64,000 bases of DNA, from assembly GCA_021202275.1 (NCBI GenBank), contig JAJQDI010000005.1:62001-126000 (forward strand), in the 5' to 3' direction. The notes under the pieces were generated by a model. The model did no database searches, was not told the DNA's origin, and was given only the letters and a program-made list of their open reading frames with translations. This stretch comes from Bacteroides sp. (GTDB taxonomy: Bacteria > Bacteroidota > Bacteroidia > Bacteroidales > Bacteroidaceae). The position numbers and the translations under genes were made by a program. Below are positions 24,163 to 25,999 of the stretch, piece after piece. The first letter of the stretch is position 1. Every line of letters begins with the position of its first letter.

Positions 24163-24624
24163 ATGATAATAGGTAGAAAAAGAAGGTTGGGTTTTATCAA
24201 CCGCGTTTTGTCGATGATCTTGACTCTTCTGGGATTTACTTCTTGTGAAAGTGAACAGCCCACGGAATATGGAGTCCCTCATGCCCGGTATGAAGTGAAA
24301 GGGACTGTTCTGGATGCCGAAGGAAGTGTGGTATCCGGATTGGGGGTCGTTGTTGCTGATGATTATCCGGTGTCAGCCTCCGCTTTTGAAGCGAGGGGTG
24401 AAGAGATTGTATATACAGATGTGAACGGAGAATTCATTGTGATCCGGGAAAGCTCATTCAATAGATTCCGTATGTATCTTTTGCCAAAGAAGGAGATTTC
24501 TTCGACTTACGAACCGATAGATTCTGTAGATATAGACTTCCGGGGTATTTCTCCGGAAGGGGGTAAAGGTTGGTACAAAGGAAGTGCCTCACAGCATATA
24601 CAGATACAGTTAAAAGGCAATTAA
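24163..24624 (+). CDS. Putative lipoprotein of rSAM/lipoprotein system
   Basis: Signal/lipobox LTLLGFTSCESE; KGTVLDAEGSVVSGLGVVV... DIDFRGISPEGGKGWYKGSASQHIQIQLK; immediately upstream of the radical SAM gene. Confidence 0.75.
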   Translation: MIIGRKRRLGFINRVLSMILTLLGFTSCESEQPTEYGVPHARYEVKGTVLDAEGSVVSGLGVVVADDYPVSASAFEARGEEIVYTDVNGEFIVIRESSFNRFRMYLLPKKEISSTYEPIDSVDIDFRGISPEGGKGWYKGSASQHIQIQLKGN

Positions 24625-24928
24625 TGGTTCTATTGTATAGCGGGCCTGTCTGCGCCGGTGATCGGGATGAAAAACATACAGCTCCTGTAGCCGGAAATTG
24701 TTTCTTTTCTGTCTGCTTTTGACCGGGAAGGATGGCTGGTCAGGCTGTATATATAGGGAAAAATTCTTTCCGCATTGAACATACGATACTATATGATTCT
24801 CAGATTCTCTGAATAAAAATCGGTTCAGAAGGTGAAGCTACCCCTTTCTTTTGACTTTTCAGGAGGAAGAGAGTGGTTTATTTTTTATGGAAGAGACAGA
24901 GCTTAGTAACATGTAAAAAGAAATAAGT

Positions 24929-25999
24929 ATGGGTGAATTATCTGTGCGTAAGCGTCTGGCGTTAGAAATTGCGCGTAAGGTCTTTCATAATCAGAAGGAA
25001 CTTCATCCATTGCGCAGTCTGTTCTGGGAATGTACACTGCGTTGTAATCTTCATTGCAAGCACTGTGGTAGTGATTGCCGGCAGTCATCCACTGTAAAAG
25101 ATATGCCGGCGGAAGATTTTCTACGGGTTGTGGATTCTCTGCTTCCTCATGTAAACCCTCATGACATGAATGTGATTCTGACCGGAGGTGAGCCTTTGGT
25201 ACGGAAGGATATCGAGAAGATCGGTCTTGAACTCTATAGACGTGAGATTCCCTGGGGTATCGTTTCCAATGGCCGGTTGCTCGATCGCAAGAGGCTGGAT
25301 CGTTTGTTGGCGGCCGGTATTCATTCCATGACCATTAGTCTGGATGGGTTTGAAGAAGAGCATAACTGGATGAGAGGACATCCGGATAGCTATGGAAAAG
25401 CCCTTGAAGCTATAAAAATGTTGGTGCATGAACCGGAGATCGTGTGGGACGTGGTTACGTGTGTGAACCGTAAGAACTACCCCCGCCTCTCTGAGTTCCG
25501 GGATTATCTGTTTCGGATGGGTGTCAGGAACTGGAGGGTATTTACTATATTTCCTTTGGGTAGGGCGGCGCAATATCCCGAATTTCAACTCTCCGGTGAA
25601 GAATTTAACGGTTTGCTTGAGTTTGTGAAAGAGGTGCGGCGGCAGAAACAGATGAAATTGAGCTATGGTTGTGAAGGCTTCCTGGGTCGATACGAAGGAG
25701 AAGTGCGGGATAACCTCTATCATTGTAGCGCGGGAGTGACTGTCGCTTCTGTTCTGGCAGACGGTTCCATTTCCGCCTGTCCCAGCATACGCAGCAATTT
25801 TCATCAGGGGAGTATTTATACAGACCATTTTATAGATGTCTGGAACCAGCGTTTCGTCAAATTCAGAAACCGCGAATGGGCCCGTCAGGGAGTCTGTGGC
25901 GAGTGTGAATTTTTCCGTTACTGTGAAGGAAACGGCATACACCTGCGGGATGAACAAGGGGAATTGCTGGTTTGTCATTACAAGCGGCTAAAAACATGA
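24929..25999 (+). CDS. Radical SAM/SPASM enzyme (rSAM/lipoprotein-system type)
   Basis: WECTLRCNLHCKHCGSDC (CX3CX2C), ILTGGEPLVRKDI, SPASM cysteines CSAGVTVASVLADGSISACPSI... GVCGECEFFRYCEGNGIHL... CHY. Confidence 0.93.
   Translation: MGELSVRKRLALEIARKVFHNQKELHPLRSLFWECTLRCNLHCKHCGSDCRQSSTVKDMPAEDFLRVVDSLLPHVNPHDMNVILTGGEPLVRKDIEKIGLELYRREIPWGIVSNGRLLDRKRLDRLLAAGIHSMTISLDGFEEEHNWMRGHPDSYGKALEAIKMLVHEPEIVWDVVTCVNRKNYPRLSEFRDYLFRMGVRNWRVFTIFPLGRAAQYPEFQLSGEEFNGLLEFVKEVRRQKQMKLSYGCEGFLGRYEGEVRDNLYHCSAGVTVASVLADGSISACPSIRSNFHQGSIYTDHFIDVWNQRFVKFRNREWARQGVCGECEFFRYCEGNGIHLRDEQGELLVCHYKRLKT

Follow-up and report, generated by a model that had tools for sequence, protein, structure and literature searches.

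The radical SAM/SPASM enzyme and the small lipoprotein encoded as neighbours in the 64,000-nt stretch of DNA analysed here (the window) belong to a system whose exported partner proteins share an X-Tyr-Gly motif, usually X-Tyr-Gly-X-Pro, lying mostly no more than about 15 residues from the lipidated Cys or the signal-peptidase site. This shared Tyr-Gly tag, placed behind an export signal, is the tag from which known spliceases remove a piece, and the backbone of these exported proteins is therefore probably rewired by unusual chemistry. Computational comparison with relatives established the pairing of enzyme and partner, the motif and its position, the relationship of the enzyme and the absence of an RRE. 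On these grounds we think it fairly likely that the enzyme family, TIGR04133, works like a splicease, on its own and without an RRE, and that its targets are proteins awaiting export; judged from motif and kinship, tyramine excision (-C8H9NO) is the chemistry that we favour, with similar reserve.

The gene pair and its conservation

Both window proteins exceed the NCBIfam cut-offs (Table 1) of the annotated rSAM/lipoprotein pair, TIGR04133 (rSAM_w_lipo) and TIGR04134 (lipo_with_rSAM), and keep its gene order; the enzyme matches over the full length of the model (positions 1-350 of 350) and the lipoprotein over positions 4-149 of 150. The sequence-only reading of this DNA had recognised the pair as such, a lipoprotein of 153 aa followed by an rSAM enzyme with CX3CX2C and SPASM cysteines, alone amid unrelated genes. 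Both open reading frames lie exactly where it placed them, and the flanking genes are indeed unrelated: an ADP-forming CoA ligase gene upstream and, downstream on the opposite strand, a gene that is ComM-like on reading its translation. The pair is single-copy in the source genome. Cysteines C39, C43 and C46 of the enzyme (CX3CX2C) are invariant across 45 relatives, as are C248, C266, C284, C323, C326, C332 and C349 of the SPASM region.

Table 1. Features of the gene pair, with positions in the window
Feature	Position	Strand	Basis
TIGR04134 lipoprotein gene, proposed substrate, 153 aa	24163..24624	+	NCBIfam 102.3 bits vs cut-off 39.8
Signal peptide, residues 1-27, with LGF element at residues 23-25; proposed leader	24163..24243	+	sequence
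Cys28, predicted lipidated Cys, lipobox FTSC	24244..24246	+	sequence and alignment A3
E35-Y36-G37-V38-P39, X-Tyr-Gly-X-Pro motif; proposed tyramine-excision site, X = Glu35	24265..24279	+	domain-HMM test and enrichment
Beta-sandwich domain, residues 40-149, CarboxypepD-regulatory-like	24280..24609	+	AF2 mean pLDDT 87.1; Foldseek; Pfam PF13620 sub-threshold
GGKGWYKG, strands and turn within folded domain	24559..24582	+	alignment A3, AF2 model
304-nt spacer without recognisable gene	24625..24928	+	neighbourhood comparison
TIGR04133 radical SAM/SPASM enzyme gene, 356 aa, no RRE domain	24929..25999	+	NCBIfam 589.1 bits vs cut-off 425; AF2 pLDDT 93.5
CX3CX2CGS, C39-S48: radical SAM cluster ligands and CGS signature	25043..25072	+	sequence comparison
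SPASM auxiliary-cluster region, C248 to C349	25670..25978	+	domain search, alignment

Two features had escaped that reading, namely the gap between the genes and the EYGVP shortly past the lipobox, which lies within the peptide stretch CESEQPTEYGVPHAR. The gap is unusually long, as the genes of most relatives overlap or lie less than 30 nt apart. Promoter matches are at chance level; terminator-like matches are somewhat over chance (5 against a mean of 2.1), with none on the + strand inside the spacer. Directly past the lipidated Cys stand acidic residues (CESE; window 24247-24255) that recall, loosely and inexactly, the CS(D/E)2 export sequence of Bacteroides lipoproteins (PMC6222051) and hint that the window lipoprotein is exposed at the surface.

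The enzyme is patchily common, occurring in 28 of 101 genomes of the genus and in 69 of the 295 Bacteroidales genomes sampled at order level, and of the 40 genomes in which a TIGR04134 protein exceeds the cut-off, 39 carry it too, with the two genes neighbours in most loci. The comparison took in about 170 related loci overall, including some 80 enzyme neighbourhoods fetched from the order. A search detected an exported YG protein near the enzyme at 74 of 81 loci; adding one locus by eye (L138) and removing three cut by contig ends gives 75 of 78 loci with intact flanks, the remaining three (L098, L102 and L122) showing no recognisable YG partner. Among 12 same-genus loci held out of the discovery set, all have a YG partner (ten with YGxP, two with YYGPG or close to it), so the conserved pairing on which the sequence-only reading depended is upheld at both levels.

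Both families are classed as ‘hypoth_equivalog’ and carry no assigned chemistry, and neither their names nor the descriptions consulted cover the X-Tyr-Gly core, partners from outside TIGR04134 or the Gram-positive branch described below. The literature searched contains no mention of TIGR04133/TIGR04134 or of rSAM-associated lipoproteins, and no published chemistry for either family, as the earlier reading had supposed. Scott et al. 2022 (10.1016/j.chempr.2022.09.017) is reportedly a survey of spliceases and may already include the TIGR04133 family.

The X-Tyr-Gly motif of the exported partners

Many family enzymes have no TIGR04134 neighbour and adjoin instead tiny Lys/Ser-rich or coiled-coil lipoproteins. 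Across neighbourhoods, YG.P reaches a density of 1.82 per 1000 residues in those ORFs whose ends fall within 1200 nt upstream of the enzyme, compared with 0.05-0.13 in the remaining zones, while nine control motifs are flat across the same zones. Y36, G37 and P39 are invariant in our alignment of lipoproteins (A3); this set was selected for YGxP, and we therefore do not count the invariance as evidence. Circularity was instead addressed with an HMM built only from the columns after the motif and run against all ORFs. It found 126 domain ORFs, of which 105 carry YG.P ahead of the domain and a further 13 carry YG without Pro at +3 (e.g. EYGSF, KYGVR, QYGVW), for a total of 118 with YG; the residual eight comprise two truncated ends, one CYAS protein beside an enzyme, and otherwise unlinked or unrelated proteins. 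YGxP as an absolute motif was accordingly refined to XYG: given the 13 members with YG alone, X-Tyr-Gly is the core, and a Pro at +3 is a strong preference on top of it. In the X position Glu, Cys, Met or Gln predominate, with Lys also seen.

In most proteins Tyr lies 1 to about 15 residues past the lipid Cys, and in non-lipoproteins directly behind an AxAQ-type signal-peptidase site. YG is retained on unrelated scaffolds, among them beta-sandwich lipoproteins, tiny Lys-rich lipoproteins, coiled coils, secreted non-lipoproteins and VYGPP-repeat lipoproteins. YG is very probably the reaction site. GF occurs in the signal peptides of 49% of partners versus 6% of control lipoproteins, and LGF is over-represented, which suggests that the signal peptide doubles as leader.

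Lipidation was considered as the defining feature of the partners and rejected, as AxAQ|YG secreted forms lack a lipobox. The earlier proposal of a lipoprotein-modification system is too narrow because some of the partners are secreted non-lipoproteins. Seven loci (L099, L107, L158, L159, L160, L164 and L165) encode such non-lipidated secreted proteins of 260-310 aa with Q-Y-G at the predicted signal-peptidase site, some of which contain a second copy of the TIGR04134-like domain.

The same comparisons bear on two other readings of the pair. The sequence-only reading had offered the C-terminal DIDF...GGKGWYKG as the modified site and suggested aligning partners for invariant residues there. 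Members of the long TIGR04134 subtype often have a W-[YN]-x-G element, but the proposed motif is conserved in that subtype alone, being absent from the subtype of roughly 125 aa and from those partners seen that lie outside TIGR04134 and adjoin enzymes of this family. In the AF2 model of the lipoprotein, a signal helix is followed by a low-confidence linker containing EYGVP (residues 31-40, pLDDT 68) and by a beta-sandwich from residue 40, and GGKGWYKG falls in beta-strands of this confidently predicted domain (blocks of pLDDT 94-97), which again speaks against modification at the C-terminus; we regard this site as highly improbable. Foldseek searches with the model return weak PDB matches to generic beta-sandwiches only. 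It is also very unlikely that the enzyme acts on a small molecule which the lipoprotein merely binds or presents. TIGR04053 and heme-related SPASM families do score alongside TIGR04133 in NCBIfam, but partner folds differ and only a short tag is common to them, as expected of a substrate, and tag copies are multiplied within one polypeptide, up to the five of locus L250.

Relationship of the enzyme to PlpX spliceases

The PlpX spliceases (IPR026482; TIGR04103, nif11-class peptide radical SAM maturase 3) likewise target XYG in a YGxP context: published PlpA-derived tags are LYGLP and GYGLP, e.g. RPLYGLPI, and hence XYGXP (PMC10533398). At a Nostoc PlpX-family locus (TIGR04103, 853 bits) the Nif11 precursor ends in ALYGLPPELF, and the window lipoprotein presents EYG at residues 35-37. 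PlpX is, in addition, a SPASM enzyme with CX3CX2CGS. In a maximum-likelihood tree, TIGR04133 and a Gram-positive group are sister to a clade of PlpX and the GDL motif peptide-associated rSAM enzymes (TIGR03913). The joint clade is separated from MftC, TIGR04053 and AhbD-like sequences with 97/95 support in a tree with limited family sampling from which the long-branched PqqE was left out; the same join has 93/71 when PqqE and other long branches are kept. Every sampled member of the joint clade has G47 and S48 of CX3CX2CGS and W202, residues found in 0%, 14% and 29%, respectively, of the sequences sampled outside it.

Placement from NCBIfam scores alone was tried and found uninformative, as several SPASM families score alike: the window enzyme reaches 110.3 bits against TIGR04103, under the cut-off of 725 and lower than its scores for TIGR04053, AhbD and NirJ2. 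MftC, PqqE, TIGR04053 and AhbD/NirJ share the radical SAM/SPASM architecture and similar HMM scores with TIGR04133; nevertheless, the tree places MftC, TIGR04053 and the AhbD-like sequences outside the TIGR04133/PlpX clade, and none of them has the CGS signature; PqqE, whose position is uncertain owing to its long branch, lacks CGS as well. GDL enzymes are 48% identical to the Nostoc PlpX-family protein, compared with a low 26% for TIGR04133, and some adjoin DUF1843 peptides with PYG or LYG, but these peptides are short, have no export signals and do not all contain YG. At three loci with GDL/TIGR03913-type enzymes beside DUF1843-type peptides (L175, L171 and L178), PYG or LYG stands near the N-terminus in some and is absent from others.

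Several properties set TIGR04133 apart from PlpX. PlpX needs PlpY, a truncated RRE, whereas the window enzyme has no RRE and neither PlpY nor a PqqD-like gene lies nearby, the PqqD-like matches of the genome being confined to two other contigs (C10 and C27). The AF2 model of the enzyme has a radical SAM/SPASM fold, closest among solved structures to SkfB, SuiB and anSME, with one helix only before the barrel and therefore no RRE. PlpX substrates carry Nif11/NHLP leaders, whereas TIGR04133 partners are exported proteins, and the window lipoprotein has a signal peptide in place of a leader of Nif11 or nitrile-hydratase type. The fold that carries the tag also differs, and X in the partners is usually E, C, M, Q or K, whereas the prototype splicease acts on MYG and LYG. 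Since the enzyme falls short of TIGR04103 and has no PlpY, we class it as working like a splicease, not as a PlpX.

Kinship and motif together also weigh on the remaining alternatives. Tyr-centred crosslinking is common among SPASM enzymes, and a crosslink at the same YGxP, with loss of 2 H per site, could join the Tyr ring to the third residue as a triceptide-like cyclophane or take the form of a Tyr-Pro bond; this would give a role to the strong preference for Pro at +3, present in 98 of 118 domain proteins and neither required nor explained by the XYG rule on its own. We nonetheless consider it unlikely: Gly (KYGGPT, KYGGPP) or Pro (KYGPPP, VYGPPE) may stand in third place, so that the usual C-beta acceptor is missing; Pro can be dispensed with, as the 13 YG-only members show; the invariant Gly at +1 is what a splicease requires; and the enzyme groups with PlpX in the tree. 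Some other modification of Tyr or Gly (epimerisation, decarboxylation-type oxidation or hydroxylation) appears less likely still. To our knowledge, an internal YG motif, as found here, fits no known epimerase or MftC rule, and MftC groups outside the TIGR04133/PlpX clade, although radical SAM/SPASM enzymes do show varied Tyr chemistry, such as the oxidative decarboxylation by MftC (PMC8326336). Thioether formation of the sacti- or ranthipeptide kind draws on a Cys in the core peptide, and the window lipoprotein has none besides Cys28 of the lipobox, so that Cys-thioether chemistry is as unlikely as the sequence-only reading had judged.

Proposed mechanism and wider distribution

Under the favoured splicease-like reading, the TIGR04133 enzyme would recognise, in the cytoplasm and before export, the signal peptide together with X-Tyr-Gly(-X-Pro) near the export-processing site, and would excise tyramine at E35-Y36-G37 ahead of export, an order of events that we infer. 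The modified protein would then be exported, lipidated at Cys28 and anchored, leaving a reactive ketoamide at the membrane-proximal N-terminus, in front of the small beta-sandwich domain; protease inhibition or covalent capture is a possible role. For an enzyme family without assigned chemistry, this proposal offers a specific test at little cost, since the named peptide should lose 135 Da. If the proposal is true, backbone-spliced ketoamides would occur on surface proteins of gut bacteria, beyond secreted natural products. PlpXY has already been used for site-specific protein labelling (PMC10533398), for which an RRE-free splicease with a short tag would be useful.

A scan of a genome collection recovered TIGR04133 relatives in Clostridia, Erysipelotrichaceae, Coriobacteriaceae and Spirochaetaceae. 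Most Gram-positive relatives adjoin lipoproteins of an unrelated kind in which VYGPP occurs one to five times, and on Treponema saccharophilum plasmid pTS1 CYGMPENYY lies beside the enzyme. Whether RRE-less spliceases across phyla (Bacteroidota, Spirochaetota, Bacillota, Actinomycetota) introduce alpha-keto-beta-amino residues into the N-termini of exported and lipid-anchored proteins, with the signal peptide as leader and, in a CYG subtype, the lipidated Cys becoming a beta-amino acid, is in our estimate an even call.

Some loci depart from the typical arrangement. A divergent group of TIGR04133-like enzymes (L166, L167 and L168; about 220-250 bits) has no recognisable YG partner, and one TIGR04134 match (L048) contains one internal TGA, which may reflect decay of the gene or an artefact of the reading frame. 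Five loci of Clostridia, Coriobacteriaceae and Erysipelotrichaceae (L250, L243, L244, L239 and L240) pair relatives under the family cut-off with VYGPP lipoproteins, and together resemble a Gram-positive branch of the system that has yet to be described. Finally, one genome (G129; L096, L151, L152 and L153) has a single enzyme gene and several dispersed TIGR04134-type proteins, suggesting that one enzyme may serve substrates in trans.
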